Assembly: GCF_000378245.1 (NCBI RefSeq)
Contig: NZ_KB899496.1
Coordinates: forward strand, 186,001-250,000
DNA length: 64,000 bases
Direction: 5' to 3'
Source: Aromatoleum toluclasticum ATCC 700605
GTDB lineage: Bacteria; Pseudomonadota; Gammaproteobacteria; Burkholderiales; Rhodocyclaceae
Of this stretch, positions 23,835 through 39,323 are shown piece by piece (position 1 is the first letter of the stretch; the number at the start of each line of letters is the position of its first letter). The position numbers and the translations under genes were made by a program. Under the pieces are notes generated by a model that saw nothing but the letters and a program-made list of their open reading frames with translations, made no database searches and was not told the DNA's origin.

Positions 23835-24653
23835 ATGACGTCCCATCAGGTCACCCTGCCGAAATCCGCGCCGCTGCCCAGTCCGGTGGAGGCTCCCACT
23901 GCCACGCACCTGGTGCTGATCCCGAGCTACAACCCGGGGCCGAAGGTGTTCGAGACGGTGCGCGCCGCGCGCCATGAGTGGATGCCCGTATGGGTCGTCG
24001 TCGACGGCAGCACGGACGGCACCACCGACGGGCTGCGCCGCATGGCGGAGGGCGATCCGGGGCTGCGCGTGATCGTGCTGCCGAAGAACTCGGGCAAGGG
24101 GGCTGCGGTGCTGCACGGCATCGAGCTGGCCGCGAAGCAGGGTTTCACGCACGTGCTGACGATGGACTCGGACGGCCAGCATCCGGCAGAGCTGATCCCC
24201 GATTTCATGGCGGCGTCTGCCGTGCGGCCCGACACGATGGTGCTGGGCGTGCCGGTCTTCGATGCCAGCGCCCCGACGCTGCGCGTGCGTGGGCGCAAGG
24301 TGTCGAACTGGTGGGCGAACCTCGAGACGCTATGGATGGGGATCGGCGATTCGCTGTTCGGCTTCCGTGTCTATCCGATCGCGCCGCTGGCCAAGGTCAT
24401 GCGCGGCCAGCGCTGGATGCGGCGCTTCGATTTCGATCCCGAAGCCGTGGTGCGCATGGCGTGGCTCGGCGTGCGTCCGGTTAACCTGCCCGCACCGGTG
24501 AAGTACTTCAGCCCGGACGAAGGGGGCGTCTCGCACTTCAATTACGCGCGCGACAACCTGCTGCTGACATGGATGCACACGCGGCTGTTCTTCGGCTTCC
24601 TCGTGCGCCTGCCGATGCTGCTCGCGCGGCGCTTCAGATCATCCCGCCGTTGA
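23835..24653 (+). CDS. family 2 glycosyltransferase (dolichol-phosphate-mannose-synthase-like)
   Basis: A 272-residue GT-A-fold glycosyltransferase. IPSYNPGPKV near residue 30, VVVDGSTDGT (about 53-62), NSGKGAAVLHGI (about 89-100) and the DXD-equivalent MDSDGQHP (about 112) are the GT2 hallmarks. There is no clear transmembrane domain apart from a C-terminal amphipathic or hydrophobic stretch (FFGFLVRLPMLLA). It probably glycosylates the polyene lipid or its carrier. Its 3' end overlaps the convergent ketoreductase gene by 20 bp. Confidence 0.87.
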   Translation: MTSHQVTLPKSAPLPSPVEAPTATHLVLIPSYNPGPKVFETVRAARHEWMPVWVVVDGSTDGTTDGLRRMAEGDPGLRVIVLPKNSGKGAAVLHGIELAAKQGFTHVLTMDSDGQHPAELIPDFMAASAVRPDTMVLGVPVFDASAPTLRVRGRKVSNWWANLETLWMGIGDSLFGFRVYPIAPLAKVMRGQRWMRRFDFDPEAVVRMAWLGVRPVNLPAPVKYFSPDEGGVSHFNYARDNLLLTWMHTRLFFGFLVRLPMLLARRFRSSRR

Positions 24654-25353
24654 TCGAGATCACCTGGCCGGTGATGTAGGCCGCCTGGGGGGATGCGAGG
24701 AAGCCCACCAGGTCGGCGACCTCTTCGGGTTTTCCGGCGCGCTTCATCGGCACAATCCGCGCAATCGCTTCCGCGTCGAAGGCGTCCTCGCTCATTGCCG
24801 TGTCGATGATGCCGGGAGCGACGACATTCACCGTGATGCCCCGGCTCGCGAGTTCCTGCGCGAGCGACTTGCTTGCCGAGTGCAGGGCGCCCTTCGCGGC
24901 CGCATAGTTCGTCTGGCCGCGGTTGCCGGTGATCGCCGCTACCGACGATATCGTGATGATGCGCCCCCAGCGGGTGCGGATCATCGGCATCGTAAGCGGC
25001 TGGGTGACGTTGAAGAAACCGTTCAGCGACACGTCGATGACGCGCTGCCATTGCTCGGCGCGCATGCCGGGGAACACCGCATCGTCGTGGATGCCGGCAT
25101 TGTTCACGAGAATCTGCAGCGGGGCCTCCGCGCTTATCGCATCGAGTGCGGCGGCCGTGGCTGCGGCGTCGGTGACGTCGAACGCGACCGCCTCGGCGCT
25201 GCCCCCTGCACCGCGGATTTCCGCGGCCAAGGCTTCGGCCTTGTCCGCGTTGCGGTTGGCATGAATGTAGACATGATGGCCGTCGCAGGCGAGCCGGCGG
25301 CAGATCGCCGCGCCGATGCCGCCGCTTCCGCCGGTGACGAGTGCGCGTTTCAA
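24634..25353 (-). CDS. FabG-like 3-oxoacyl-ACP reductase (ketoreductase of the polyene synthase)
   Basis: This 239-residue SDR has TGGSGGIG (residues 8-15), NNAGI, ISSVAAITGNRGQTNYAAAK (Ser, Tyr, Lys catalytic set) and the C-terminal GQVISINGGMI, typical of FabG. It reduces the 3-keto group after each elongation. The start is a TTG at 25351-25353, chosen because the protein would then begin LKRALVTGG and because the codon overlaps the dehydratase stop by 4 nt (TTGA). No ATG is available near the conserved N-terminus. It is the last gene of a four-gene leftward operon. Confidence 0.9.
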   Translation of the reverse strand: MKRALVTGGSGGIGAAICRRLACDGHHVYIHANRNADKAEALAAEIRGAGGSAEAVAFDVTDAAATAAALDAISAEAPLQILVNNAGIHDDAVFPGMRAEQWQRVIDVSLNGFFNVTQPLTMPMIRTRWGRIITISSVAAITGNRGQTNYAAAKGALHSASKSLAQELASRGITVNVVAPGIIDTAMSEDAFDAEAIARIVPMKRAGKPEEVADLVGFLASPQAAYITGQVISINGGMI

Positions 25354-25841
25354 GATTGGCTCCCGCTGAGTTTGCCACCGAGGCCGCGGCCGAGGGCGCC
25401 CGCGTCGAGGATCACCGCGGCGCGGCCGGAAACGAGCACGCGTCCGTCCGCGGAGACGGTGAAGGAATAGAGGATCTGGTTGTCGTTGCCGGTGATGCGT
25501 TCGGCGCGGATGTCGAGGTCGGCGGCGACGGTGTCGAGCCTTTCGACGGCGATCTCGACACTGCGCACGCTCGCGAGGAAGCCCGCGCGAGGTGGCTCGC
25601 CCGGCGTAGCGAGCAGGGCACCATGCACGGCCATCGCCTGTGCGGCGTACTCGATGGCGCTCGTCGCCGGCAGGCCGCGATCGTCGCGCAGCGGGTTGTC
25701 GTTGTCGCGGTGGCTCGTCGCGCGGCAGCGGATCGCATCGGCGTCCCAGGCGTCGACACCGGCGAGCAGGCACATCCCGCCCTGGTGCGGGATGCGTGCG
25801 GCGATGGCCTCGCGGTCGAGCGTTGCGGGCTGCATGCTCAT
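25350..25841 (-). CDS. 3-hydroxyacyl-ACP dehydratase, ApeP-like hot-dog protein
   Basis: A 163-residue hot-dog-fold protein. The motif IPHQGGMCLLAGVDAWD (residues about 15-31) matches COG4706-type dehydratases found in aryl polyene clusters; TSAIEYAAQAMAVHG is the central helix with the conserved Glu. It dehydrates the 3-hydroxyacyl-ACP to the trans-2-enoyl form, which is retained to build the conjugated chain. ATG at 25839-25841 is chosen; an ATG at 25835 is equally possible since no strong ribosome site separates them. A second, smaller dehydratase is encoded at 37672-37971. Confidence 0.82.
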   Translation of the reverse strand: MSMQPATLDREAIAARIPHQGGMCLLAGVDAWDADAIRCRATSHRDNDNPLRDDRGLPATSAIEYAAQAMAVHGALLATPGEPPRAGFLASVRSVEIAVERLDTVAADLDIRAERITGNDNQILYSFTVSADGRVLVSGRAAVILDAGALGRGLGGKLSGSQS

Positions 25842-25860
25842 GTCGCAGCTGATGCTGCGC

Positions 25861-26670
25861 TCACGTCGCATAATCGACCGCGAGGCGGGCGTGGTCGAGA
25901 TAGTCGAGGACGATGCGACCGGTGCGGCGTCCGGCGATTGCGGCCAGCAGGGGCAGGCTGCGCGCGGCGGGGATGGCACATCGCAAGGACTCGAGGCCGG
26001 AATCCGCGAGGGTGTCGGCGGGGGCGTCGGTCAGGCTCGCGGCGAGGCGTCCGCAGCTGTCGGCTTCCCGCTCGGGCGTCAGCAGCAGCGCGACGCCGAA
26101 GGCGTCGGGGATCGGGCGCGTCGAGCGCAGCGGTTCGGGGTAGTCGGCGTCGTACGCGAGCAGCAGACACGGTTCGCGCTCGACCTGGACCTGCGCGAGC
26201 GTCTCGAGAAGGCCTGCGCCGAAGCTGCCGTCGTAGGCGCACAGCACGGCCGAGGCCGCGGTCGCGCCGGTGGCGATGCCCCAGTAGCCGGCGGCGGCGT
26301 TATGCACCGAATTGTGGAAGCGTGTCGGCGAGATCTGGCGGTCGTCCGATGCGAGGGTTTCGCAGATCTGGTGGCAATTGCCGCCATCGCCGCCGGATGC
26401 CGAGAAGACGGTCGCGAGGCCGGACGGATCGACGCCGGCAGCCGTCGTCGCCTGCAAGCCGACACCCAGGGCGAGCTTCACTACCCGCACCGCACGGCGG
26501 CGTTCGGCCGGCGGCAGCCGATCGGGGGCGTTGAGTACGGTCTTCTCCGGATTCCAGGCAGCGTGGCCCTGAAGGATCGCAGCGCAGGCCGGCCAGTCGG
26601 ACATGCCGGGCCCGATCAGGCCGATGCTGCGTATCCAGGCTGCGGGCGGGTTCGTCATGGTCGGACTCAT
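25861..26670 (-). CDS. ketosynthase-like protein without active Cys (chain-length-factor-like)
   Basis: A 269-residue protein of the ketoacyl-synthase N-terminal-like family (Ketoacyl-synt_2). The block SPTRFHNSVHNAAAGYWGIATG is characteristic, and the canonical active-site Cys and HGT motif are absent. In aryl polyene systems the equivalent (ApeC) pairs with the ketosynthase as a chain-length factor. Its ATG overlaps the upstream ketosynthase stop (ATGA), fitting a heterodimer made in equal amounts. Length (about 250-270) is usual for this group. Confidence 0.85.
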   Translation of the reverse strand: MSPTMTNPPAAWIRSIGLIGPGMSDWPACAAILQGHAAWNPEKTVLNAPDRLPPAERRRAVRVVKLALGVGLQATTAAGVDPSGLATVFSASGGDGGNCHQICETLASDDRQISPTRFHNSVHNAAAGYWGIATGATAASAVLCAYDGSFGAGLLETLAQVQVEREPCLLLAYDADYPEPLRSTRPIPDAFGVALLLTPEREADSCGRLAASLTDAPADTLADSGLESLRCAIPAARSLPLLAAIAGRRTGRIVLDYLDHARLAVDYAT

Positions 26671-27854
26671 GCTGGGCTGCCGAGGATCAGGCTGCAGTTC
26701 GTGCCGCCGAATCCGAAGGAGTTGCTGATGACGCGCCGCACCGGCTGGCGGCGCGTAGCGAGTACGTAGTCGAGCCCCTCTTCGGGGGCGGTGGTGCCGG
26801 CGCCCGCCGGAATGAAGCCGTCGCGGATCGCCAGCGCAGCGATCACGGCCTCGATGCCGCCGGCGGCGCCGAGGGTGTGGCCCGTTGCGCCCTTGGTGGA
26901 GCTGCAGGGCGTCGCGCTGCCGAAGAGCCCCTTCACGGCCTTGCCTTCGGCGGCGTCATTGCTCGGCGTCGCGGTGCCGTGGAGGTTGATGTAGTCGATG
27001 TCGGGCGCGGCGAGGCCGGCGCGCGTCAGGGCAGCATCCATCGCCTGGCGGGCGCCGCGGCCTTCGGGATGCGGGGAGGACATGTGGTAGGCGTCGCTCG
27101 ATTCGCCGTAGCCGAGCAGCAGGACCGCGTCGGGCGGGAGCGCGTGTGGTGCCGGTTCCAGCAAGGCGAAGGCCGCGCCTTCGCCAATCGAAATGCCGTC
27201 GCGGGCGCGATCGAAGGGGCGGCAGGCTTGCCGGGAGGTGAGCTCGAGCGAATTGAAGCCGTACAGCGTCGTGAGGCACAGGGAATCGACGCCGCCGACC
27301 AAGGCTGCATCGATCAGACCGCTCGCGATCATGCGCGCGGCGGAGGCGAACACCTTGGCGCTGGACGAACAGGCGGATGAGACAACCACGGCGGGCCCCT
27401 TCAATCCGAACCAGTTTTGCACGAAGTCTGCCAGCGAGAAGGTGTTGTGCGTGCCGGCGTAGTTGAAGTCGGCCGGAAGGGCCCCGGTGTCGGGGGACCG
27501 CCGGCGATAGGCGAGTTCGGTCTCGAGGATGCCGGATGTGCTCGTGCCGAGGAAGACGCCGATGCGATCGGCGCCATGACGGGATATAGCTGCGCGAACC
27601 GCGTCGGCGAAACCGTCCTGCAGCAGGCCGAGTTGCGCAAGTCGGTTGTTGCGACAGTCGAAGCGTGCGAGTTCCGCGGGGAGCCGTTCGTCGTTGGTGC
27701 CTGCGACCTCGCCGATCCACGTCTGCAGCGAGACGGTCTCGAAGTCGCACGGCTTGAGCCCGGACCGACCGGCAAGCATCGCGTCGCGAAGCGGCTCCAG
27801 CCCCCGCCCGAGGCAGGACGTGGCGGTGTAGGCGGAAATCAGCAGCGGATGCAC
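26667..27854 (-). CDS. beta-ketoacyl-ACP synthase (polyene ketosynthase, ApeO-like)
   Basis: About 395 residues. The catalytic triad is visible: SSACSSSAK (Cys), INLHGTATPSND (His) and TKGATGHTLGAAG (Lys and second His). The C-terminus SNSFGFGGTNCSLIL is typical of FabF-type enzymes. It would condense malonyl-ACP onto the aromatic starter. No ATG exists near the conserved N-terminus HPLLISAYTATS, so a GTG at 27852-27854 is proposed; a GTG 18 nt upstream and a TTG further upstream are alternatives. It heads the leftward operon, divergent from a LysR gene. Confidence 0.88.
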   Translation of the reverse strand: MHPLLISAYTATSCLGRGLEPLRDAMLAGRSGLKPCDFETVSLQTWIGEVAGTNDERLPAELARFDCRNNRLAQLGLLQDGFADAVRAAISRHGADRIGVFLGTSTSGILETELAYRRRSPDTGALPADFNYAGTHNTFSLADFVQNWFGLKGPAVVVSSACSSSAKVFASAARMIASGLIDAALVGGVDSLCLTTLYGFNSLELTSRQACRPFDRARDGISIGEGAAFALLEPAPHALPPDAVLLLGYGESSDAYHMSSPHPEGRGARQAMDAALTRAGLAAPDIDYINLHGTATPSNDAAEGKAVKGLFGSATPCSSTKGATGHTLGAAGGIEAVIAALAIRDGFIPAGAGTTAPEEGLDYVLATRRQPVRRVISNSFGFGGTNCSLILGSPA

Positions 27855-28069
27855 TTTGACTCGCAATTGCACGAAGGAGCGGTATTTTAGCAAAGTGCGG
27901 GATGTCGGCCCGTGCTTGCTCGGCGTTCGGCCTGTGATTGCAGGGGCAGCGTATCGGCTCGCGATTGTTCCGGTTTGCGAAACAGTGTTTCTTCCGATGC
28001 GCGCTATTTCGGTTCGGGGCGCCGAACTAGACTGCGGCGCCCCGATTGGAAATGCATACGGACCGATTC
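27855..28069. promoter_or_regulatory. divergent promoter region between the polyene ketosynthase operon and the LysR gene
   Basis: These 215 bp separate the leftward ketosynthase start from the rightward LysR start. LysR-type regulators usually bind such a shared region, controlling both their own gene and the divergent operon. No single operator could be assigned by eye. The region is somewhat AT-richer at 27885-27900 and 27960-28010. Confidence 0.5.
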
Positions 28070-28981
28070 ATGGACAAACTGATCGCGATGAACGTCTTCC
28101 GTACGGTCATCGATTGCGGCTCGTTCGCTCGTGCGTCGGCCAAGCTCGGCATTTCGACCACCACCGCGTCGCGCCATGTGGGGGACCTCGAGCAGGCGCT
28201 CGGCGTCTCGCTGCTCCACCGCAGCACGCGCAAGATCGGCCTGACCGAGCCCGGCACGATGTATTACGAGCGCTGCTGCATGCATCTGGATGAGATCGCA
28301 GCGACGGAACTCGCAGTGTCCGCGGACAATGCCTCACTCAGCGGCTGCCTGCGCATCAGCGTTCCGTACTCCTTCAGCAACGTCTTCCTCGCGCAGCATT
28401 TTTCCCGATTCGTCGAATCCCACCCGGCGCTCAAGACGGAGATCCGCTTTTCCGACCGGATCGTAGATCTTGCCCAGGAGGGCGTCGATCTGGCGGTACG
28501 CATCACGCGCAATGTTTCGGGGATGTACGTCGCGCGGCGTCTCGCCGTGATCCGTACTGCCCTGTGCGCCAGTCCGGAATATCTGGAGCGCGCAGGCCGG
28601 CCGGTGAAACCCGACGACCTGGTGCGCCACAGCTGTCTCGTGTACACCAATCTCGCCTCCGGCAATGGCTGGAAGTTGCGCAGGGGGGATCAGGAGTTCG
28701 TCGTGCCGGTGCACGGTGCTTTCCGCTCGAACAACGGCGAAATGAACCGTATCGCCGCGCTTGCCGGCCAGGGCATCATCTGTGAGCCGACGTTCATCGT
28801 CGGTGAAGACCTGCGTGCCGGTCGCCTCGTGCGTGTCCTGCCCGACTACGAGACGATCCCCAATCAGGCCCACGCGGTGTTCCTGCCGGCGGGCCGCAAT
28901 TCGGCGCGCATCCGCGCATTTCTGGATTTTCTGGTGGCGCTGTTCGAGGACGAATTCCCGGCCTTCGATCCAGCCATGTGA
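28070..28981 (+). CDS. LysR-family transcriptional regulator
   Basis: This 303-residue protein has an N-terminal winged helix-turn-helix (MDKLIAMNVFRTVIDCGSF ... ISTTTASRHVGDLEQALG, residues 1-60) and the LysR substrate domain (SGCLRISVPYSF ... LAQEGVDLAVRITRN). The sequence is close to the large CrgA/DsdC-like group that regulates oxidoreductases and efflux. The ATG at 28070 gives the standard N-terminus; an ATG at 28052 is possible. It is divergent from the ketosynthase operon and convergent with the MtrB gene (72-bp gap), so pigment synthesis is the likelier target. The inducer is unknown. Confidence 0.9.
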   Translation: MDKLIAMNVFRTVIDCGSFARASAKLGISTTTASRHVGDLEQALGVSLLHRSTRKIGLTEPGTMYYERCCMHLDEIAATELAVSADNASLSGCLRISVPYSFSNVFLAQHFSRFVESHPALKTEIRFSDRIVDLAQEGVDLAVRITRNVSGMYVARRLAVIRTALCASPEYLERAGRPVKPDDLVRHSCLVYTNLASGNGWKLRRGDQEFVVPVHGAFRSNNGEMNRIAALAGQGIICEPTFIVGEDLRAGRLVRVLPDYETIPNQAHAVFLPAGRNSARIRAFLDFLVALFEDEFPAFDPAM

Positions 28982-29053
28982 GCACGAGCCCCGGACTCAT
29001 GCGCAAGACCCCGGCTCGCCGCGGCCTTGCGCTCGGCACTTCGGACTCCGGTC

Positions 29054-31648
29054 CTACATGCGGTACTGCCAGAACACGCCCAGCACATTGACGTTGTAGT
29101 CTTCCGGTGTGGCGCCGAGGTACAGCTTCTGGCCGATCAGCGGGTTGCCGTCCAGGCCGGTGTAGTGCCAATCCTCGACGTTGCGCTTCTCCCAGCGATG
29201 GAACAGTCGTACCGAGCTGTTCTTGTCCAGGTCATGCACGATGCTCGTCTCGATCACCTGCAGGCGGTACTTCATGTCGGCAAACTCGTTGCCCGCGACC
29301 GCCGCAGTCTGAGTCTCGTTGGTGCCGCTGCCCACCGTCGCCGCCTGTGCATCGGAGTAGCCGTACTTGAGCTTGCTCGACGACCACATGTAGCTGTAGC
29401 GGCTTTCCAGGCGGGCCCAGCCGAAATTGTGCGTGAAGCCGGCTCCGAGTGCATGGTTCAGGTCGTCCGTGTCGGCGCTCCACGCGCCGGCCAGCGGATA
29501 CATGTTGTCGACGCCGGCATGGGAACTGGCGCGCGTGCCGCTCACTCCCTGGTTGATGTTGCGCTGGCTCATCTTGCCGGTCTGGAACGAGTACCAGGTG
29601 AAGAAACTGCTGCCCGGTGTGGGCGTGTAGTTCCATTCTGCATTCACGCTGCTGAGCTTCTCGTCCCCGGTACGGCCGTAGTCGGAGTCGAGGTAGTCGT
29701 TCCGCCTGTGCTGCAAGGACAGCATCGCGTCCATGTCCGAGCGCAGCATGGTGTTCCAGCGCAGGTTGATGACGTTCTGGCGGCGATCGGCGATGTCGAA
29801 CTTGCGCAGTTCGGCGAGGGTATGTACCGGCACGGCGCCGGTGTAGTCGTCGCGCGAGCTGGTGTAGAAGTGCTCGTAGATGTCGTAGCGGTAGTCGCTG
29901 CCGCGCCGGTCGCCGAACTCCCACGACGCGCGCAGCATCGATTGTTCGAAGGCGCGGGTGTTGAAAGTGAGCTTGAGACGGTCCTCGGTGGTGTTCTTGA
30001 CCTCGCGGTACGGGCGCTCGGTTTCCTCCCTTTCCCACATTGCGCCGATCTGGCTCTGGCGGCCGAGGCGGTAGTCGGCGCCCAGCCCTCCCGTCCAGCG
30101 GGTGTAGCTGGTCGGGATGCTCATGTAATGGATGTTGTTGGTGCCGTTGTAGAAGCCGAATGCCGCGCCGAATACCCCCGGCAGCGCGTAATCCAGCGCC
30201 GGATAGCCGATCTTGCCGGTGGCCGGATCAATGGCTGTGTAGCGCGTGCGGTTGTCCTCGTCGTAGTAGCGCAGCTTTGCGCGCACGGTGAGGTCGTCCG
30301 CGGGCTGCAGCGACAGGCCGAGATCGGCGAGGCGGGTGTCGATCCTCGCGTCGGCCTTCAGGCGGCTGAGCACGCCTGTCGTGTCGTAGCCGGCGATCGC
30401 GCTGGCGTAGGTCGTCGCCACGCCGGCGGCGTTGATGCCGTCGTTGATGGTCGGCGGAAGCAGGTCGTCGTTCTGACGCATGCTGCCGAAGGCGACGGTC
30501 GCGCTGAACTGCCCGTGCATCGGCAGCATGCGGGCGTAGTCGGCCTTGATGTTGTACGCCTCGTTGTCCGGGCTGAGGGCGAAACGCCCCTTTTCCCAGC
30601 TGGTCGAGTTCGTCGTGCCTGCCGCGCCGAAGTTGATCGAGAAGGGATTTTCCCAGGTCAGGGATTTGTTGTCGTTGCGAAACAGCGAGCTCGACAGGGT
30701 GAGGTTCAGGCGGTCCTTCTCGCCGACGTAGCGCAGACCGGTGAGGAATTCGTGGGTCGTGTAGTCGATCGGCTCGACCGTTTCGTTGACGGCCCCGACG
30801 ACGTTGTTGCCGACCGGATTCGCCGCGGAACGGCGGATGAAGTCGAACATGAAACCGCCGCCGAAGGGCCGCTCGCCTTCGCGCCGTTCGTTGGTATAGC
30901 TGAAGAAGCCGTTGAGCCGTTCGTTGATCGGCGTGTCCATGCGCAGGCCGATCTTCTGCCGGTCGACGCTCAAGGTCGTCTCGCGTGCATTCGCCACCGC
31001 CGCCTGCAGCGCGGCGTAGCTGGCCGTGTCGGACTGGGTATGAGTGCCCGCAGCAAGACCGGCGGGCAGGGTCAGGTTATCGGTGCCGACGCCATTCCAC
31101 AGCGGGCGCGCGTTGGTCGAGAAGATATGTGGCGTGTCGTTGAGGAACAGCGAGAACTTGATGCCGTTGTATCGCCCGGCTTCGAAGCCGTAGTACTGGT
31201 CCTTCCTGTCGACGCCGCCGCCGCGCAGCCGCAGATAGAGCGCCTCGTCGGGCTTCTCGGCGCTCAGGTTGAAGCTGTTGATCAGCGCCCCGTTTTGCCA
31301 GTCCGCATATTCGCGGAAACCGCCGGCCGTGGCGTCGGCGTTGCCGCCGGTGTAGCCGGCTTCGATACTGCCGGCGTATTGCCAGCCGCCGCTGCCTTCG
31401 ACGTGGCCGGGTGATACCGGCGGGTATCGGTAGAGTTGCGCGCTCGGCGTGTGCGACGGCCCCTTGCCACCCATCACGGCGGAGAAACCTTGAGGGTCGG
31501 TGTAACCCGTCGTGTCGGCGCCGCCGGGCGCGGCTGCATTGCCAAGAACGGTGTCGACGCCGGCCGCCGAGTCGGCGCGGGCGGGGCCGGCTCCCATCAT
31601 TGCGAGCATCGCGACGATGGGCAGCAGGGAAAATTCCTTGTTTTTCAT
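29054..31648 (-). CDS. MtrB/PioB-family decaheme-associated outer-membrane porin
   Basis: An 864-residue beta-barrel protein. A signal peptide (about 1-25, ending GPARA) precedes a long series of alternating, aromatic-rich strands such as AGSIEAGYTGGNADATAG and YYGFEAGRYNGIKFSLFL, ending in an aromatic C-terminal strand (NVLGVFWQYRM). These features and its place directly downstream of a decaheme cytochrome gene (21-bp gap) identify the MtrB/PioB sheath that holds the cytochrome across the outer membrane. No CXXC motif is visible near the mature N-terminus, unlike Shewanella MtrB. It overlaps nothing and is convergent with the LysR gene. Confidence 0.9.
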   Translation of the reverse strand: MKNKEFSLLPIVAMLAMMGAGPARADSAAGVDTVLGNAAAPGGADTTGYTDPQGFSAVMGGKGPSHTPSAQLYRYPPVSPGHVEGSGGWQYAGSIEAGYTGGNADATAGGFREYADWQNGALINSFNLSAEKPDEALYLRLRGGGVDRKDQYYGFEAGRYNGIKFSLFLNDTPHIFSTNARPLWNGVGTDNLTLPAGLAAGTHTQSDTASYAALQAAVANARETTLSVDRQKIGLRMDTPINERLNGFFSYTNERREGERPFGGGFMFDFIRRSAANPVGNNVVGAVNETVEPIDYTTHEFLTGLRYVGEKDRLNLTLSSSLFRNDNKSLTWENPFSINFGAAGTTNSTSWEKGRFALSPDNEAYNIKADYARMLPMHGQFSATVAFGSMRQNDDLLPPTINDGINAAGVATTYASAIAGYDTTGVLSRLKADARIDTRLADLGLSLQPADDLTVRAKLRYYDEDNRTRYTAIDPATGKIGYPALDYALPGVFGAAFGFYNGTNNIHYMSIPTSYTRWTGGLGADYRLGRQSQIGAMWEREETERPYREVKNTTEDRLKLTFNTRAFEQSMLRASWEFGDRRGSDYRYDIYEHFYTSSRDDYTGAVPVHTLAELRKFDIADRRQNVINLRWNTMLRSDMDAMLSLQHRRNDYLDSDYGRTGDEKLSSVNAEWNYTPTPGSSFFTWYSFQTGKMSQRNINQGVSGTRASSHAGVDNMYPLAGAWSADTDDLNHALGAGFTHNFGWARLESRYSYMWSSSKLKYGYSDAQAATVGSGTNETQTAAVAGNEFADMKYRLQVIETSIVHDLDKNSSVRLFHRWEKRNVEDWHYTGLDGNPLIGQKLYLGATPEDYNVNVLGVFWQYRM

Positions 31649-31669
31649 GATTGTTCGTCCTCAGTCTCG

Positions 31670-32749
31670 TTAGCGATGCATCCGGGCACCAGCCGGGTGG
31701 TTGGAGCCGTGGATCTGCGCATGGCAGGTGGAGCAGCCGCGGCCGATGACGCGTTCGTCAGGCAGCGCACCGCTGGCGGTGTTGGCCTGCGTGAGGAGGT
31801 TGTTCTGGTGCGTTGTGTGGGTGTGGCACTGCTGGCACAGGAAGGGGCGCGGGGTCGATAGCAGCTTTTCCTGATTCGAGCCGTGTGGGCTGTGGCAGTT
31901 GAGGCAGCTTTCGCGCACCGGGGCGTGTTCCCAGACGAAGGGGCCGCGCTTCTCCTGGTGGCAGCTGTAGCAGAGCTGGTTGACCGTATCTGCCTTGAGC
32001 AGCGGCTTCGTCGGCGAACCGTGCGGGTTATGGCAATCGGCGCAGGACATCTTCCCTTCGGGCAGCGGCATGTGCGAGCGCTTGCGGAACTCCATGCGCT
32101 GCTGCTGATGACAGCTGTAGCAGGTCTCGGAAATGCTGTTGGCCTTCTGCAGGCCGGTGGCCGAAAACTTTGCCATCGGGTTGTGGCAGTCCGTACAGGC
32201 CAGCCCGTTGGTCTGATGCGTGGACGAGCGCCAGAAGATGCGCTGGTTGCCGTCATGGCACTGCAGACATACCGCGTTGCTTTGGTCAGGGCCGTTGTTG
32301 TTGGCAGACTCACCCGGCTTCGTCGCCTCGCGGGTGAAACCGACGATCAGGGACTTGTCCTTTTGCTGCCCGCCGGCCTTCGTCGATTCGCGCGTAAAGC
32401 TGACGATGAGCGACTTGTCCATGTAGTTTTCGTTGGCGTGGCGCGAGCCGGGCCCGTGGCAGGCCTCACAGCCGCGGCGCTCGAGATCGTTCTTCGGATT
32501 GAGGCGGAATGCCTTGGCGTGCGTCGTGTGCGAGAACTTGTCGTTCTCGACGGTGTGGCACGCGAGGCAGCGCTCTTCGCCGATGTATTCCGCGCCTTCG
32601 GTAAAGCGGATCAGCGGGGCGTTGGCCGCGCTGGCCGGCGGTACGGCCGCTTGCGCGAAGCCGAAGCCGAGATGGATGAGCAGCAGGCCCGCCGCGAGGC
32701 GGACGCTGCCAGTTGCGAAAAGCCGCGTGAATCGTGTTCCCGTTTTCAT
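31670..32749 (-). CDS. DmsE/MtrA-family periplasmic decaheme c-type cytochrome
   Basis: This 359-residue cytochrome has a signal peptide (about 1-34, ending FAQA) and exactly ten CXXCH heme sites: CLACH, CEACH, CLQCH, CTDCH, CYSCH, CADCH, CYSCH, CLNCH, CQQCH and CSTCH. Ten hemes and the following mtrB-type gene define an MtrA/DmsE/PioA electron conduit through the outer membrane. The interval between hemes 2 and 3 is lengthened by a 20-residue tandem duplication. No outer-surface MtrC/OmcA-type cytochrome or terminal reductase gene is adjacent, so the electron partner is unknown. A strong GGGGAG ribosome site precedes the ATG. Confidence 0.95.
   Translation of the reverse strand: MKTGTRFTRLFATGSVRLAAGLLLIHLGFGFAQAAVPPASAANAPLIRFTEGAEYIGEERCLACHTVENDKFSHTTHAKAFRLNPKNDLERRGCEACHGPGSRHANENYMDKSLIVSFTRESTKAGGQQKDKSLIVGFTREATKPGESANNNGPDQSNAVCLQCHDGNQRIFWRSSTHQTNGLACTDCHNPMAKFSATGLQKANSISETCYSCHQQQRMEFRKRSHMPLPEGKMSCADCHNPHGSPTKPLLKADTVNQLCYSCHQEKRGPFVWEHAPVRESCLNCHSPHGSNQEKLLSTPRPFLCQQCHTHTTHQNNLLTQANTASGALPDERVIGRGCSTCHAQIHGSNHPAGARMHR
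32318..32420 (-). repeat. 60-bp-period tandem duplication inside the decaheme cytochrome gene
   Basis: Two 43-bp blocks (32318-32360 and 32378-32420) match at 35 of 43 positions at a spacing of exactly 60 bp, keeping the frame. They encode DKSLIVSFTREST and DKSLIVGFTREAT, separated by KAGGQQK. The substitutions are partly synonymous, so the duplication is not brand new and the unit has been kept under selection or drift since it arose. Confidence 0.85.
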
Positions 32750-32958
32750 TGAACTCCCCGATAGGCTGACCAGGCAGATCCGGACGGATATGTTTTGTTA
32801 CATGCCTGGCGTCGGGCGGATTCTCGTGAATTCGGTGGGGCGGAAAAATGAAGCGCAGCGAAAGGGTATCCCCCGCAATTCGGGATGATGGGGGGATGCC
32901 CTTCACCTGCGGCCGCGATGCTCCGGCCATTTGCCGGTGAGACGGGTGGTTGCCGCGC

Positions 32959-33771
32959 TTAGGGGATCGCGTGCTCGAGGGTGACCGGCATCAGGCCCGC
33001 GGCGCGGCAGCTATCGAGCACCCGTGGGAGGGCGTCGAGGATCACGGCCCGCCCTTGCGACGTGCGCGCGGCGTTGCCGTCGTGCAGCAGCAGGATGTCG
33101 CCGCCGCGCGTCTTGCCATCGCGGCCGCCGAGCAGCCGGGAGGCAACCGCATCGGCGTCGCCGTTGCGGGTGTCATACGCGCGGCGGGTCCACGACGCGA
33201 GTTGCAGGTCGAGCCGGGCGAGGACAGGCTCCAGGAAGGGATTGCGCAGGCCTGCCGGCGCGCGGAAGAAGCGCGGTACCCGGCCGCAGACTTCGGCGAT
33301 GGTGTCCTGCGCGGCGCCGATCTCATGGGCGAGCCAGCGGGGGCCGTGCAGCGAGAAGGTCTTGAGGTGATGTTCGCTGTGGTTCTCGATGGCGTGGCCG
33401 CGGGCGACGATTTCGCGGGCGAGCGCCGGATGTTCGCGCACGAGCCGGCCGATGACGAAAAAGGTCGCGCGAGCGCGATGGGCATCGAGCAGGTCGAGCA
33501 CGCGGGGCGTGACGTCCGGATCGGGGCCGTCGTCTATCGTCAGCGCGATTTCACCCCGCGCGGCTGCGGCGCCCGGCAAGCGTGTCCAGTTCGTCCCGAG
33601 CAGCGAGCAGCGTGGCAGCAGCCCTGCCGCGGTGAGCAGGCCGTGGTTGGCGGCGACGGCGCCGACTGCCCACGGCCAGGCTTCGGGGCGCAGGGCGATC
33701 CCGGCCGCTGCGGCGGCGTGCAGCACCGCCGAGCAGTGGATCAGCGCGCCGGGGCGCCAGCGGCGGGGCAT
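32959..33771 (-). CDS. polysaccharide deacetylase-family protein
   Basis: A 270-residue NodB-type carbohydrate esterase. Two hydrophobic N-terminal segments (about 10-50, WPWAVGAVAANHGLLTAAGL) suggest membrane anchoring. The catalytic motifs are clear: ALTIDDGPDP (Asp-Asp), HAIENHSEHH (the H-X3-H type metal site), RFFRAPAGLRNP and the late LLLHDG. It would remove acetyl groups from a sugar, possibly on the polyene glycolipid. The ATG at 33769-33771 lies 31 nt inside the upstream exporter gene end, so it is the last gene of the leftward pigment operon. Confidence 0.85.
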   Translation of the reverse strand: MPRRWRPGALIHCSAVLHAAAAAGIALRPEAWPWAVGAVAANHGLLTAAGLLPRCSLLGTNWTRLPGAAAARGEIALTIDDGPDPDVTPRVLDLLDAHRARATFFVIGRLVREHPALAREIVARGHAIENHSEHHLKTFSLHGPRWLAHEIGAAQDTIAEVCGRVPRFFRAPAGLRNPFLEPVLARLDLQLASWTRRAYDTRNGDADAVASRLLGGRDGKTRGGDILLLHDGNAARTSQGRAVILDALPRVLDSCRAAGLMPVTLEHAIP

Positions 33772-36116
33772 GAGGTCCTGCGGGCGAAGGCGGCCGCGAA
33801 GAGCAGGGCAAGGAAGGCGCCGGGGCCGACAGTGCCCCCGATCGCCTGCAGCACGGGAACCGAGGAAAACGCGAGGACGCCGAAGCCTGCGACCGTCGTG
33901 AGGTTCGCGAACAGCATCGAGGCGAGGGTTGCGGGCGGGAGGGCGTCGTTTCCGCCCCTGCCGTCGAAGAACAGGGCGTAATTGGAGCCCACGGCGACGA
34001 TCAGCAGCAGTCCGACGAGATGCAGGATCGTCAGCGCCACGCCCGCGAGTACGAGGCCTGCGACGACCGTCAGAACGGAGGCCGCGAGCGGCAGCACGAC
34101 GCGGATGACGCGCCGCGGCGAGCGCAGGGCGACGGCCAGGAGCATGACGATTGCGCCCACGCCCGCGAGCGACAACATGATGGCTTCGCGCAGGTAGCCC
34201 GCGTAGAGCCGTCCGGACTCGCTCTTCATGTCGATGAACAGGGGGCTGGCATCGGCGGCCCCTTCCAGCGCGCTGCGGACCGCCGCGGGGTTGATCTCTT
34301 TCGCACGCGAGCCCGCAGCCGGCGCGCGCAGCGGCAGAAGGGCGGTCCATTGCTCGCCCTGACGCAGGAGCAGCGAGTCGACTGCCATCGCGAAGCTGGT
34401 TCCGTCGAGGTCTGCGCGCGTCAGCGGTGCGCGGGCGCGGGCGGCGGATATATCCTCGACGAAGGGCTCGAGTCGCCCGGCGGGCAGGGGCAGGCCCACG
34501 GTCGCGGCGCCGAGCCGTGCGCGCAGTTCGCCCGGGTCGGGCAGGGCAGCGCGACGTTCGAGCTGTCGCGCATGCGAAGGCAGGTACAGCGAAGGGCTCT
34601 CGAAGCCGCCGATCTCTCCGGCGTCCACGAGCGTCTGCAGCTGCACGGACACTGCTTCGGCCTGCTGCAGGGTCGTGTCGGCGTCGGCCGCCCGCACGAC
34701 GATCATGTAACGCAGGTCCGGTGCACCGAGATCGCTGCGCAATGCCGCGTCGAGTGCCTGGGCCTCGGGGGAGACGGGGCTCAGCGCCCCGAGTTCATGG
34801 TTCCAGATGCGGCCGTGCTGCGCGAACACGAGGGCACCGCAAAGCGCCGCCAGTCCGGCAAGGAACCAGCGCAGCCTTTTGATTGCGACAACGAGGCGCT
34901 GCAGGCGCAGGCCGAGCGGCGTCACGTCGCGGATGGCGAAGCCGGCAGGCAGGAGGTGCGGCAGAACGTAACGGGTCACGAGGGCCGCGACGATCAATCC
35001 CGCGATCGAATACAGGCCGAGCTGCGCAAGCCCCGGAAACCCCGAAAACATCAGCGCGCCGAAGCCGCAGATGGAGGTCATCACGCCGAGCCGTATGGTC
35101 GGCCAGAAGGCGTTGCGGCCGCCGCTCCCTTTCCCGGCGCCCGACTGGACGAAGAGGTAGATCGCATAATCGACCGCCTCACCGATCAGGGCCGTGCCGA
35201 AACCGAGGGTAACCCCGTGCATGACGCCAAACCAGAGGCTGACGGCGACGATGCCTGCGAGTGCTCCTGACACGACCGGCAGGAGCCCGAGCACGAGGGC
35301 CGTCGGCGAGCGGTAGATGAACAGCAGGAGCGCGACGATGATCGCGGTCGACACCAGCGCGAGCCGCGTCACTTCGCCCTGGATGGTGGCGCGCGAGTCG
35401 ACCGCGAACACGGCGGCGCCCGAAATCAGCAGCTTGAGATCAGTCCCGGAAGGCAGTCCGGACGCCTCATCCGCAAACGCCTTGCGCACGGAAGCGATGG
35501 CCGCCTGCTGGCCGTCGAGATCCGACCCGGAGGCGCGGGTCTGGATGAGCAGCAGTGCACGCCCGCCATCGCGCGAGGCCCATACGCCTTCCTGCATCGC
35601 CGGACGCGCGCCGCCGTCGAGTCGTTCCAGCAGTTGCAGCAGCTCGCCGGTGGGGTCGCGCGGCAGCAGTGCCTTCGTGAGCATGCCGAGGGGCGAGGCG
35701 AGGAGATTGACCGACTCCTCGATGGCTTGCCGCAGGCCCGCCGTCGTGAAGCGTTCCGTGCTCACGGCAGGGCTCAGGACATAGCGGTTGGCGAACAGCA
35801 GGGCGTGGTCGTGCTCGCGATGGACGGGTTCGCCGTTCGCGACCGTGCCGAAAGCCGCATCGGCCCGCAGCTGCCGGGCGAGACCGCGCGAGAGTTGCGC
35901 CCGCTGTGCCGCGTCGCCGCCTTCGATGCCCACTAGCAGCAGGCGCGACACCATGCCGTCGCGCAACTGGTCGACGAGGATGCGCTGTTCGGCGCTGGGC
36001 GCTTCGGGGAGGAAGGCCGAGAGGTCGGTCGTGAAACGTGTCTGGCTCACGACGGCGACGCAGGCTGCGACGAAGGCCAGCCACAACAGCAGGGCTGGCG
36101 CGAAACGGCGTGTCAC
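33741..36116 (-). CDS. MMPL/RND-family exporter of the aryl polyene locus
   Basis: A 791-residue inner-membrane transporter of the COG4258 type. It has an N-terminal transmembrane helix, a large periplasmic loop (about 30-230), a bundle of helices (about 245-410), a second periplasmic loop and a second bundle (about 640-780). The paired layout is that of RND exporters with 12 helices. Equivalent exporters are a fixed part of aryl polyene and flexirubin loci. The start is GTG (36114-36116), overlapping the LolA-like gene stop as GTGA. The C-terminal codons overlap the deacetylase start. Confidence 0.88.
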   Translation of the reverse strand: MTRRFAPALLLWLAFVAACVAVVSQTRFTTDLSAFLPEAPSAEQRILVDQLRDGMVSRLLLVGIEGGDAAQRAQLSRGLARQLRADAAFGTVANGEPVHREHDHALLFANRYVLSPAVSTERFTTAGLRQAIEESVNLLASPLGMLTKALLPRDPTGELLQLLERLDGGARPAMQEGVWASRDGGRALLLIQTRASGSDLDGQQAAIASVRKAFADEASGLPSGTDLKLLISGAAVFAVDSRATIQGEVTRLALVSTAIIVALLLFIYRSPTALVLGLLPVVSGALAGIVAVSLWFGVMHGVTLGFGTALIGEAVDYAIYLFVQSGAGKGSGGRNAFWPTIRLGVMTSICGFGALMFSGFPGLAQLGLYSIAGLIVAALVTRYVLPHLLPAGFAIRDVTPLGLRLQRLVVAIKRLRWFLAGLAALCGALVFAQHGRIWNHELGALSPVSPEAQALDAALRSDLGAPDLRYMIVVRAADADTTLQQAEAVSVQLQTLVDAGEIGGFESPSLYLPSHARQLERRAALPDPGELRARLGAATVGLPLPAGRLEPFVEDISAARARAPLTRADLDGTSFAMAVDSLLLRQGEQWTALLPLRAPAAGSRAKEINPAAVRSALEGAADASPLFIDMKSESGRLYAGYLREAIMLSLAGVGAIVMLLAVALRSPRRVIRVVLPLAASVLTVVAGLVLAGVALTILHLVGLLLIVAVGSNYALFFDGRGGNDALPPATLASMLFANLTTVAGFGVLAFSSVPVLQAIGGTVGPGAFLALLFAAAFARRTSCPAAGAPAR

Positions 36117-36715
36117 CGTGCCGGCCCCATCGCCGCGATCGCCATCACCGAGCGGTCGCCGTCAGCCTGCAGGATCTCGATCTCGCGCAGCAGGCCGCGC
36201 GTCCCGGCGATATTGATGCGGGTGACGACCTCGGCCATGCGCGTGTCGCGCGGCAGCAGGGTCAGGGTCCAGCGTTCGGCATTGCCCGCGAGGTGCAGCG
36301 CGTAGCTACGCTCGAGCGTCTCGCGGTCACCGGCGAGCGTCGCGCGGATGCTGTCGATGAATCCGGCGACTTCGCCGTAGTCGGACAGGCGGACGTTGAA
36401 TTGTTTCTTGCCGCGCGTCACGCTCAGATTGTTGCCTTCGAGGATCATGGATTCGGGGCGTGGCTTGAGGGTGATCTTCTCCAGCCGGTCCGGGGCCTGG
36501 AAGCGCAATTCCCCCGACGATTCGACGGGCTGGTCGAGCACCGCCAGATACTTCCGCTCCTGGAAGGTGGCCTGTCCGCTGCGATGCTTGCCCAGGGCCT
36601 GCATCAGCTGGGCCACCGTCCAGGACTCGGCGGCGATGGCCTGCGGACCGGGCAGCAGGAACGCCGCCGCGAACAGGGCGGCAACGAGCAGACGCGTGGA
36701 AGCAACTTTGAACAC
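36113..36715 (-). CDS. LolA-like outer-membrane lipid/lipoprotein carrier
   Basis: This 200-residue periplasmic protein has a signal peptide (about 1-29, ending AIAA) followed by SWTVAQLMQALGKHRSGQATFQERKYLAVLDQPVESSGELRFQAP, here given only in part as the key positions 30-75, the usual start of COG2834 proteins. It probably shuttles the hydrophobic polyene lipid across the periplasm with the adjacent MMPL exporter, which is inferred from cluster composition. It is coupled to the exporter gene by a GTGA overlap. Confidence 0.82.
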   Translation of the reverse strand: MFKVASTRLLVAALFAAAFLLPGPQAIAAESWTVAQLMQALGKHRSGQATFQERKYLAVLDQPVESSGELRFQAPDRLEKITLKPRPESMILEGNNLSVTRGKKQFNVRLSDYGEVAGFIDSIRATLAGDRETLERSYALHLAGNAERWTLTLLPRDTRMAEVVTRINIAGTRGLLREIEILQADGDRSVMAIAAMGPAR

Positions 36716-36730
36716 GGGTACTCCAGGGGG

Positions 36731-37675
36731 TCAGTGGACGGCGCGGCGGCGCGCGCTCTGCCAGAAATCGAAGAAGTTGAACCAGTTGTATGGCGCCTGT
36801 CCCGCATAGTGCGCAAGGCGTGCCGCGTAGCATTCGACTGCCGCGTGAATCAGGTGTGCCCGGTTCTCGCGCGTCGCCGCGGAGAAATCGGCCAGCTCCT
36901 CGAAGTGCACGTCGTAGCGGTTGCCCCCGCGATACAGGCCTACCATCAGGATCACCGGGCGTTTGAGCATGGCCGCGATGCGCCACGGGCCGACCGGAAA
37001 ATCCGCCGGCTCGCCGAAGAACTCGACCGGCTGCGACGGATCGTCGCCCAGGCTGCGGTCCGCAAGCACGCCCACCAGCGAACCGTCGTCGAGCCGCTCC
37101 TTCAGGAGCAGCATGGAATCCAGATGCCCCAGCGGAATGATGTCCGCACGGGCCGCCGGATTGATCGCGGCCAGCGTGTCGTTGATCTTGCGCGCGTTCT
37201 CCTCGTACATGACCATCGCCACGCGCATGCCGGGTTGCTGGCGACCGATCGCGCGCATGACCTCGAAGCTGCCGAGGTGCGCACCCATCAGGAACACCCC
37301 CTGGCCGCCGGCCACCGCCGCCTGCACGAGTTCGCCGCCATGCACGCGGATGTCGAACAGGTCGAAGCGGTCATTCACCAGGTAGATGCGGTCGTGGATC
37401 GTGCTCGCGAAGCTGAAGACATGCCGGAACCGTTCGATGGCCTTGGGACGTCGGCCGAGGGCATGTCCGAGCCAATCGCGCGAGGCTCTCCGGGCGGTCG
37501 GCGCGAAGAGCAGGAAGTAGGCCGAAATCAGCACCAGCACCGCACGCCCGGCACGGCGACCGAGCCGCAGCGAGATCCACGTCATCAACCGCAGCGTAGC
37601 GTAATTGCTGCGCTCCGGCCGGCTTGCCCAGTCGGCCGTGCCGCGTCGGGGCTGTGCGTCGGATGTGTCGTTCAC
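36731..37675 (-). CDS. LpxL-like acyltransferase of the pigment locus (COG4261 type)
   Basis: This 314-residue membrane acyltransferase has an N-terminal hydrophobic helix (AVLVLISAYFLLFAP, about 45-60), the active-site motif GAHLGSFEVMRA (HX4E, about 132-143) and a late GVLADRSLGDDP segment as in lauroyl/myristoyl transferases. It likely acylates the polyene conjugate. The start is GTG (37673-37675), overlapping the dehydratase stop; no ATG fits this start. It belongs to the leftward operon running from the ACP gene at 40266 to the deacetylase at 32959. Confidence 0.83.
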   Translation of the reverse strand: MNDTSDAQPRRGTADWASRPERSNYATLRLMTWISLRLGRRAGRAVLVLISAYFLLFAPTARRASRDWLGHALGRRPKAIERFRHVFSFASTIHDRIYLVNDRFDLFDIRVHGGELVQAAVAGGQGVFLMGAHLGSFEVMRAIGRQQPGMRVAMVMYEENARKINDTLAAINPAARADIIPLGHLDSMLLLKERLDDGSLVGVLADRSLGDDPSQPVEFFGEPADFPVGPWRIAAMLKRPVILMVGLYRGGNRYDVHFEELADFSAATRENRAHLIHAAVECYAARLAHYAGQAPYNWFNFFDFWQSARRRAVH

Positions 37676-37971
37676 GCCGGATCGACTCGCAGGGAGCCGG
37701 TCGCGACGCACTCGTCCCCGGCGAAAATGTCGAAGCGCCAGCTCGCGCCCGCTTCGGTGAGGCGTACACGCAGCTCGGTGCCGGGGCCGACCGGGCGCAG
37801 GAACTTGGCCGATGCGATGCCGCACGGCGGCACGCGACGCCCGAGGGCGTCCCCGAGCGCGCGCGTCGCGAGGCTCAGCAGCACGACGCCCGGCAGGATG
37901 GGGCGACCCCGGAAATGCCCCGCAAACGACGGATGATCGGCGGGAATCGAGACGCTCGACTCGTGGATCAT
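37672..37971 (-). CDS. FabA/FabZ-like hot-dog dehydratase (ApeI-like)
   Basis: A 99-residue single hot-dog domain. The motif DHPSFAGHFRGRPILPGVVLL (residues about 12-32, His within HPSFAGHF) is typical of 3-hydroxyacyl-ACP dehydratases. Short, isolated versions of this domain occur in aryl polyene clusters next to the ligase and act together with the ApeP-type enzyme. The start (ATG, 37969-37971) overlaps the ligase stop as ATGA. No catalytic Glu/Asp equivalent is obvious, so activity may need the partner dehydratase. Confidence 0.83.
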   Translation of the reverse strand: MIHESSVSIPADHPSFAGHFRGRPILPGVVLLSLATRALGDALGRRVPPCGIASAKFLRPVGPGTELRVRLTEAGASWRFDIFAGDECVATGSLRVDPA

Positions 37972-39323
37972 TCGCGGCCGCCCAGTGTGCGCCGCAGCTC
38001 TTCCAGCGCCGCGCGCGGAAGCTTGCCCGTCGCGTTGCGGGGAAGGGCGTCCGCGAAGATCAGCGGGCGGGGCAGGAACAGCGGATCGATGCGCTCGCGC
38101 AGGGCCTGCAGCAGTGTGGCGCGATCGAGGGCCGGTGCCACGACGACCGCCGTCAGGCGCGTCACCCCGTCGGCCTGGTCCTCGTCCGGCATGAAGAAGC
38201 TGCCGTCGACGACGCCCGGGATCGCATTCAGCTGATGGTTCAGGTAGCCGAGCGAGCTGCGCTTGCCGGCGATGTTAACGAGATCGGCCGAGCGCCCGTG
38301 CAGCAGGAAGCGGTCACCCGAGGTGGGTTCGATGATGTCGTTCAGCACGGTCGGCGTCTCGACATGGCCGCCCCGCGCCCACACCTTGCCGTCTTCGACG
38401 CTGAGCCTGAGGTCGCGCATCAGCTGCCATTCCGCCGTCTCGGCCGTGCGCCGGGTAGCCGTCTGGCCCGTCTCGGTGCAGCCGTAGATCTCGATCAGCG
38501 GGCACCGCAGCTGTGCCTCCACTGCGACGGCGAGATTGCCCGATAGCGGCGCGGTGGCGGACACGACGAGATCGGCCGGCGGCACCTCAGCATCGGCGGC
38601 CAGCAGGGTGCGCAGGTGGAAGGGCGTGGTCACCAGGACGCGCGGGCGGGGGGCGGCGTTCAATGCGTCGGCGATGTCCGCCGGATAGAACGGCCGCCCC
38701 GACCAGATCGCGCCGCCCGACAACAGTGCAAGCAGCACGGTCGACTCGAATCCGTACATGTGCTGCGGCGGGACGGTGCCGATCAGCGTGAAAGGCCTGC
38801 CGACCACGCCCAGCCTGTCCGCCTCGGCCGCGATGTTGCGCACGAGGGCGCCCCAGCTCTTCGGGTGCGGCATCGGAGCGCCCGTCGATCCGGATGTGAA
38901 GACGTAGGCCACGGTCTGATCGACGTCGATCATCGGCACCGCGGAGTCCTCCGGCGCAGGGGGGGCGTCCCCGATTTCGAGGAAGCAGTGCTGCGGCAGG
39001 TCGATGTCGCAGGCGGGATCGTCGGTCAGGCAGAACGCATCGGGTGCGAAGGCGAGTAGTTGCCGGACGGTCTCGGGCGTATGGGTCGAGGGCAGGAGAC
39101 TGATTTTGCGACGGACCAGGCTCGCAGCCAGCCCGACGGTGAAGCGGTAGCGGTCCGCGCACACGTTCAGGACGTGCCCGCCGGCAGGCAGCCCGGACGC
39201 GAGGCGCCGTACATCACCCAGGAAGCGTTCGACCGTCACCGGGCCGTCATGCCGCCAGGCAAGTACGGCATCGGGTTGTGCGTGCGCAAGGAGCGGCAGC
39301 GTTGCGGGGCCGGGGTGCGTCAT
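37968..39323 (-). CDS. AMP-dependent acyl-ACP/CoA ligase (starter-loading enzyme, ApeH-like)
   Basis: This 451-residue ANL-family adenylating enzyme has the P-loop TSGSTGAPMPHPKSWG (about 164-179), IEIYGCTETGQTATR (about 280) and a C-terminal domain ending NATGKLPRAALEEL with the catalytic Lys. The PHPKSW form of the P-loop is characteristic of aryl polyene ligases. It would activate the hydroxybenzoate from the chorismatase (21067-22116) and load it on the ACP at 39976-40266. Both ends overlap neighbours by 4 nt. Confidence 0.87.
   Translation of the reverse strand: MTHPGPATLPLLAHAQPDAVLAWRHDGPVTVERFLGDVRRLASGLPAGGHVLNVCADRYRFTVGLAASLVRRKISLLPSTHTPETVRQLLAFAPDAFCLTDDPACDIDLPQHCFLEIGDAPPAPEDSAVPMIDVDQTVAYVFTSGSTGAPMPHPKSWGALVRNIAAEADRLGVVGRPFTLIGTVPPQHMYGFESTVLLALLSGGAIWSGRPFYPADIADALNAAPRPRVLVTTPFHLRTLLAADAEVPPADLVVSATAPLSGNLAVAVEAQLRCPLIEIYGCTETGQTATRRTAETAEWQLMRDLRLSVEDGKVWARGGHVETPTVLNDIIEPTSGDRFLLHGRSADLVNIAGKRSSLGYLNHQLNAIPGVVDGSFFMPDEDQADGVTRLTAVVVAPALDRATLLQALRERIDPLFLPRPLIFADALPRNATGKLPRAALEELRRTLGGRE

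Follow-up and report, generated by a model that had tools for sequence, protein, structure and literature searches.

An mtrA-mtrB-lysR electron-conduit cassette, probably horizontally acquired, between the two arms of an aryl polyene pigment cluster in Aromatoleum toluclasticum

In Rhodopseudomonas palustris TIE-1, PioAB takes up electrons from soluble iron and from poised electrodes without MtrC (PMC6831781), and the MtoAB-CymA/MtoD system of Sideroxydans lithotrophicus ES-1 provides an MtrA/MtrB pair in a betaproteobacterium (PMC6295460). Mobile mtrCAB clusters, found via the syntenic regions of relatives, have already been published and read as horizontally moved (PMC8805035). In the arcuflavin system of Azoarcus sp. 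BH72 arcN is a deacetylase gene and the adjoining arcM a methyltransferase gene, the pigment loci azo3910-3921 and azo0253-0264 are described as not physically linked, and insertion in one gene of either locus abolished the pigment (PMC3949708). Here, we analyzed a 64,000-nucleotide stretch of Aromatoleum toluclasticum ATCC 700605 (contig NZ_KB899496.1, positions 186,001 to 250,000), called the window below, in which a unit of three genes, mtrA, mtrB and lysR, sits between the two arms of an arcuflavin/xanthomonadin-type aryl polyene cluster. We consider it very likely that this unit is a self-contained electron-conduit cassette, probably acquired horizontally, which landed once, in the ancestor of five species, at a joint of the pigment cluster, and that its adjacency to pigment genes is coincidental.

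Conduit genes and their closest described systems

The gene identities were read directly. All ten CXXCH codon patterns found within 31721-32569 on the minus strand fall in the mtrA open reading frame (ORF), and the stretch 13105-64000 contained none besides these; the whole window held 13 in comparison to a mean of 3.15 (standard deviation 1.58, largest 8) in 100 shuffles. The mtrA ORF scored 249.5 bits against TIGR03508 (DmsE-family decaheme, cut-off 192.2), and the best solved relative of its product was 6r2q_A (E 1.9e-57). The mtrB ORF, at a spacing of 21 bases, scored 377.7 bits against PF11854 (MtrB_PioB, cut-off 23) and 299.3 bits against TIGR03509 (cut-off 240.05). An AlphaFold2 model of MtrB built with nine sequences was weak overall (mean predicted local distance difference test score 56.7, with 403 residues below 50); counting by hand gave 26 strands of at least 8 residues in this low-confidence model, and its best match in the PDB was 6r2q_B, the MtrB of the Mtr complex (E 1.3e-34, the next being 5.7e-10). 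In the solved structure of MtrB the barrel has 26 strands (PMC7198977). Motif count, family matches and fold match confirmed the ten CXXCH sites and the barrel protein named in a preliminary description of this DNA, and mtrA with the adjoining mtrB is the gene pair expected of a MtrAB/PioAB/MtoAB porin-cytochrome conduit.

The pair is interpreted as a conduit of the outer membrane that works without MtrC and resembles PioAB and MtoAB, because no MtrC-type protein exceeded its cut-off and because PioAB sets a precedent; the cassette has no OmcA/MtrC-type decaheme, and the best TIGR03507 match in the same genome reached 27.8 bits (cut-off 209.3). As in PioAB, a decaheme is combined with an MtrB/PioB-type porin and no extracellular decaheme, but pio serves phototrophic Fe(II) oxidation, and PioA has 500 residues whereas the window MtrA, with 359, has no room for the N-terminal region of about 200 residues (PMC6831781). 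Unlike PioABC, no pioC gene for a high-potential iron-sulfur protein follows, the gaps of 72 base pairs (bp) between mtrB and lysR and of 209 bp between mtrA and the deacetylase gene being too small for one. In contrast to MtoABD-CymA, the cassette lacks cymA and mtoD, and its MtrA clade is distant from that of a copy on contig 31 of the same genome; the latter, an mtrAB locus with a NapC/CymA-like cytochrome, is comparable to the cymA-mtrB-mtrA cluster of Azoarcus tolulyticus (PMC6295460). The mtrCAB clusters of PMC8805035 are similar in that conduit genes present in one species are missing from the syntenic region of its relatives, whereas the unit described here is without MtrC, has a LysR regulator instead of a cytochrome as companion and landed inside a pigment cluster. 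It also differs from MtrCAB in having no extracellular OmcA/MtrC decaheme and from DmsEFAB in having no adjoining dmsAB reductase genes, its neighbors being lysR and pigment genes. An N-terminal CXXC marks the MtrB of metal-reducing gammaproteobacteria, whereas the window MtrB (864 residues) has none and is free of cysteine. The CXXC motif is mentioned for Shewanella MtrB (PMC12175506). In addition, cysteine is absent from the four Aromatoleum copies of MtrB that were aligned, and three Thauera homologues have four or five; in MtrA, at about residues 110-145 between hemes 2 and 3, the segment DKSLIV(S/G)FTRE(S/A)(T/A)K is doubled in all five cassettes found at the pigment locus and single in the copy of genome G569 (see below).

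Working as PioAB and MtoAB do, the ten-heme chain of MtrA inside the MtrB barrel would pass electrons through the outer membrane without MtrC, and its partners at the mouth of the barrel would probably be small soluble ones such as Fe(II) and humic quinones. Inner-membrane and periplasmic partners would be supplied from elsewhere in the genome, for example by the NapC/CymA-like cytochrome beside another mtrAB. The same genome has three further mtrAB loci, on contigs C7, C1 and C31 (L072, L073, L074), which belong to a distant MtrA clade and could share partners with the window conduit; the NapC/CymA-like cytochrome lies alongside the C31 locus, and the C1 locus adjoins a gene whose product has eight CXXCH and what appear to be membrane segments. 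The system itself is of an ordinary kind.

The conduit genes are under purifying selection, a direct observation: within the five filled loci the ratio of nonsynonymous to synonymous divergence (dN/dS) was 0.072 for mtrA, 0.105 for mtrB and 0.128 for lysR, compared with 0.071-0.155 for three pigment genes. Synonymous divergence (dS) was 0.19-0.26, similar for cassette and pigment genes. Both measures resemble those of the pigment genes, as they should if the common ancestor already had the cassette at this site and its descendants have used it ever since.

Filled sites, empty sites and a second address

The genus comparison covered 17 Aromatoleum genomes, the window's included, and the filled and empty sites in them, like the second address described below, were seen directly. 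In five of these genomes mtrA, mtrB and lysR lie in the same order between deacetylase and ketosynthase genes, namely the window, G044, G167 (A. tolulyticum), G574 (Azoarcus sp. Aa7) and G576 (A. toluolicum; here the exporter gene is on a separate contig, with deacetylase, cassette and ketosynthase together), and MtrB is 94% identical in the named records of Azoarcus sp. Aa7, Aromatoleum toluolicum and A. tolulyticum. The remaining 12 have no conduit at the pigment locus, nine having been read as loci and three (G567, G568, G572) by coordinates. The deacetylase-ketosynthase gap of the empty sites measures 121 bp in G570 and G569 (the latter with its exporter on a separate contig from these two genes), 140 bp in G571, about 210 bp in G573 and G577, about 400 bp in G192 and about 800 bp in G100, G137 and G575; in the three genomes judged by coordinates, exporter and ketosynthase are 1561-1567 bp apart with arcM in between. 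In a tree built from five proteins for 14 of these genomes (without G567, G568 and G572) the filled loci formed one clade (support 91/93), sister to G570 plus G569, with the seven together at 100/100. A single landing, as suggested by this tree, would explain all five filled loci.

Genome G569 carries an identical three-gene arrangement on another contig, between fdsR, a LysR gene beside formate dehydrogenase-like genes, and gpmI, which is phosphoglycerate mutase-like (both named by reading the sequences, with no family scan). Identity to the window is 76.6% for mtrA (residues 14-359), 73% for mtrB and 61% (61.5%) for lysR. In all five other genomes read at this place (G000, G570, G577, G574, G044) fdsR and gpmI are only 134-251 bp apart, and thus each address has an empty site in the other lineage. 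A lysR of at least 60% identity occurs in exactly the six genomes of the 17 that have this type of conduit, the next best match being 43%. The preliminary description had held that relatives with the conduit always elsewhere and contiguous pigment arms, together with no shared regulation, would make the arrangement a chance insertion; relatives do have uninterrupted arms and the sister species does have its conduit elsewhere, although "always" is too strong, as the arrangement occurs in five species.

Between G569 and the five filled loci, dS in the six genes compared was 0.74-0.89 for mtrA and mtrB, 1.14-1.37 for lysR and 0.36-0.62 for the ketosynthase, FabG and deacetylase genes. Since the cassette values are higher than those of the pigment genes, the comparison favors two separate putative acquisitions, by G569 and by the ancestor of the five species, over a move within the genus. 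One acquisition by a common ancestor and a later move, either in G569 or in the five-species ancestor, would account for the identical gene content and orientation at both addresses and for the window and G569 MtrA being mutually nearest in the MtrA tree (100/97); we regard it as improbable, as the synonymous divergence of the cassette is clearly above that of the three pigment genes (six genes only), G570, the sister of G569, is without a conduit of this type, and no remnant of the cassette was visible by eye in the 121-bp joints of G569 and G570.

Beyond the genus, MtrB matches were obtained in 29 of 199 sampled genomes of the family at 1e-10 and in 3 of 369 sampled genomes of the class at 1e-60, the window's own genome being in both sets. 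We read 22 mtrAB loci with their flanks, comprising the three others of the same genome, the G569 locus and 18 from 18 contigs elsewhere (two of these, L093 and L104, are short); genes of the distant loci, and of the pigment intervals described below, were called with a simple greedy script that missed or misplaced some. The 22 loci gave no match to the ketosynthase (KS), deacetylase, exporter, LolA, acyltransferase or ligase, and the flank resemblances to window genes were generic: FabG-like in L074 and L084, LysR-like in L074, L086, L087 and G569, and old yellow enzyme-like in L087. Diheme cytochromes c (PF00034) lie beside mtrB in 13 of the 22 loci and an AraC-type regulator precedes mtrA in 7 (both assigned by clustering, the members of L008 being scanned); both are absent from the window cassette. 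The pair that the window and G569 copies form in the MtrA tree is joined first by G194 (94/87) and then by G129 (97/99). A LysR gene is divergently upstream of mtrA in G194, and none was called there in G129; conduits of this small branch thus tend to come with a LysR regulator.

The pigment joint and the layout of the cassette

Family matches in both arms bear out the earlier claim that pigment genes lie on both sides of the conduit (Table 1). As set against the gene table of PMC3949708, the locus has the arcuflavin-type ketosynthase, ketoreductase, deacetylase, exporter, LolA, acyltransferase and AMP (adenosine monophosphate) ligase, and a Pfam scan of the ORF at the expected dehydratase position gave no match. 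The locus resembles the BH72 genes in having a deacetylase/exporter/LolA/acyltransferase/AMP-ligase arm and a ketosynthase arm, but in BH72 the arms are unlinked and arcM stands beside the deacetylase gene, whereas in the window the arms are adjacent and the conduit is in the place of arcM (PMC3949708).

Table 1. Features of the window at and around the cassette.
Feature	Position	Strand	Remarks
FabG	24634-25353	-	downstream pigment arm
ORF without assigned family	25350-25979	-	downstream pigment arm; at expected dehydratase position
KS-like	25861-26670	-	downstream pigment arm (arm remainder 24634-26670)
Ketosynthase	26667-27854	-	first gene of downstream pigment arm; family matches
Extended -10-like element TGCTAAAAT	27884-27892	-	before ketosynthase; identified by conservation, no call by consensus scan
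Palindrome TGTTTCG-N5-CGAAACA	27966-27984	-	T-N11-A, LysR-box-like; between lysR and ketosynthase
lysR, LysR-type regulator	28070-28981	+	cassette; family match; conserved start MDKLIAM at 28070
mtrB, MtrB/PioB porin	29054-31648	-	864 residues, no cysteine; PF11854, TIGR03509, fold match 6r2q_B
mtrA, decaheme c-type cytochrome	31670-32749	-	359 residues, ten CXXCH; TIGR03508, 6r2q_A match
Hairpin	32862-32903	-	in the mtrA-deacetylase gap; mostly conserved across the five filled loci
Polysaccharide deacetylase (arcN-like)	32959 to ~33753	-	last gene of upstream pigment arm; start approximate
MMPL exporter	33741-36116	-	upstream pigment arm (33741-39323)
LolA-like protein	36113-36715	-	upstream pigment arm
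Acyltransferase	36731 to ~37651	-	upstream pigment arm
AMP ligase	37968-39323	-	upstream pigment arm

The aryl polyene cluster may be described as loosely jointed at the landing site, the deacetylase-ketosynthase gap in which relatives carry, or appear to have lost, arcM. Of the 17 congeners, 6 have an intact arcM, G192 has a 62-residue match and 10, including all five filled genomes and both sister genomes, have no match; the gene or its remnant is kept in the gap in 7 of the 12 genomes that have no conduit there. With the G137 protein as query, no match was found in the window's own genome at E 1e-10. The gene appears to be in the course of loss across the genus (deacetylase-ketosynthase gaps L077, L127 and L128), and the pigment may differ accordingly.

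In the family, exporter-ketosynthase spacing was determined from strong matches only (51 of 71 exporter-matching and 50 of 100 ketosynthase-matching genomes). The two genes were within 10.6 kilobases (kb) of each other in 41 of 50 genomes (three of these with the conduit), on separate contigs in 7, and 4.1 and 5.0 megabases (Mb) apart in 2 single-contig genomes (about 0.4 Mb round the circle). Sixteen intervals, chosen rather than drawn at random and in 10 cases picked because the gap exceeded 3.9 kb, were read, largely by eye; a methyltransferase lies between deacetylase and ketosynthase in 10 of them (the one of G137 was scanned). By eye, G119 (L113) has kinase- and response-regulator-like genes between deacetylase and ketosynthase, G112 (L114), G062 (L115) and G177 (L117) have unrelated genes before the ketosynthase, and G130 (L116), G108 (L120) and G156 (L121) have chemotaxis-like or ATP-binding cassette (ABC)-like genes between exporter and deacetylase.

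The lysR gene and mtrB are convergent, and lysR and the pigment ketosynthase gene diverge. Its ORF was listed from 28046, and the start was set at 28070 given an in-frame stop just upstream in two sister copies; the range 28982-32958 first proposed for the conduit covers mtrA and mtrB and omits this third member of the unit. The -10-like element TGCTAAAAT before the ketosynthase is exact in four of the five filled sites and reads TGCTAGAAT in A. toluolicum. In the form TGNTAAAAT, it is found 30-38 bases before the ketosynthase start in all six empty sites read and in the filled sites (one substituted). Since the element is common to empty and filled sites, it resembles a promoter belonging to the ketosynthase arm itself; with the cassette upstream of it, the landing would have broken neither pigment arm. 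Over 27600-33200, a sigma-70 consensus scan gave no promoter-like site and a single terminator-like site, inside mtrB on the opposite strand. The hairpin before mtrA was rejected as a terminator, as the intergenic stretch folds barely better than its shuffles (whole-intergenic z -1.37).

Several observations weigh against the proposed landing of a mobile cassette. The junctions have neither direct nor inverted repeats of more than 8 bases and no transposition scar, and no mobility gene was noticed beside the cassette when genes were read by eye. G+C content at third codon positions (GC3) is 0.84 for mtrA and 0.87 for mtrB compared with 0.845-0.868 for the pigment genes, giving no clear foreign signature; total G+C content is lower in the cassette (0.63-0.64 vs. 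0.665-0.73), but foreign composition was not counted as evidence of transfer because GC3 is like that of the pigment genes. In addition, the insertion has been kept by all five descendants, and a LysR-box-like palindrome now stands upstream of the ketosynthase. Loss of an older insertion in G569 and G570, or a move within the genus, is a less parsimonious alternative.

Possible links between conduit and pigment

The palindrome arrived with the insertion and precedes the -10-like element of the ketosynthase by about 75 bp. This location raises the possibility of regulatory capture after landing, in which the cassette LysR, via the palindrome, would drive or repress the ketosynthase arm so that the building of the pigment chain follows the conduit signal. 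The T-N11-A form expected of LysR and the match with 0-1 mismatch in all five filled loci (one in the window) speak for such a role, but the palindrome also precedes lysR, so that autoregulation of this gene is the usual explanation, and the corresponding region of the G569 lysR has, by eye, only a differently spaced inverted repeat. A window scan allowing 3 mismatches gave three matches vs. 1.93 expected, in which only the 1-mismatch site stands out; it placed none before mtrA, and a LysR palindrome upstream of mtrA was rejected on this ground. We regard capture as unlikely. The same doubt applies to its consequence, that the landing rewired the pigment and that a conduit-borne LysR with a candidate operator upstream of the ketosynthase promoter might have founded a new redox-pigment regulon in one Aromatoleum clade.

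That conduit and pigment are clustered since they cooperate at the outer membrane, to which the products of both are assigned, in surface redox chemistry with the pigment as antioxidant, is very improbable, for although the two adjoin in 5 of 17 congeners and the purifying selection on the conduit is in the range of the three pigment genes, the five filled loci are best read from the tree as one event, the sister species G569 has its conduit elsewhere and an uninterrupted deacetylase-ketosynthase joint, the 18 distant mtrAB loci (two short) show no pigment gene beyond generic FabG-like reductases, and 11 of the 17 congeners, all of which have exporter and ketosynthase, are without this type of conduit. 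A literature search on pigment and conduit terms together gave no paper with both among the matches listed, and in another, combining aryl polyene and Azoarcus, the opening lines of the abstracts listed did not mention this locus. Between the two readings offered in the preliminary description, simple insertion is the one supported, by the empty site in 12 of 17 genomes, the second address in G569 and the unlinked arms in BH72 and two single-contig genomes, and a functional link found no support.

Taken as a chance landing, the locus would illustrate cleanly how a minimal conduit without MtrC can move as a three-gene unit that includes its regulator, and occupy two places in a single genus, for each of which an empty site is known. 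Its pigment-gene neighbors would then say little about the function of the cassette, and the case cautions against inferring function from neighborhood, as a striking juxtaposition loses its force once a sister species is examined. The capture by LysR, if true, would show how a chance landing creates a new regulon.

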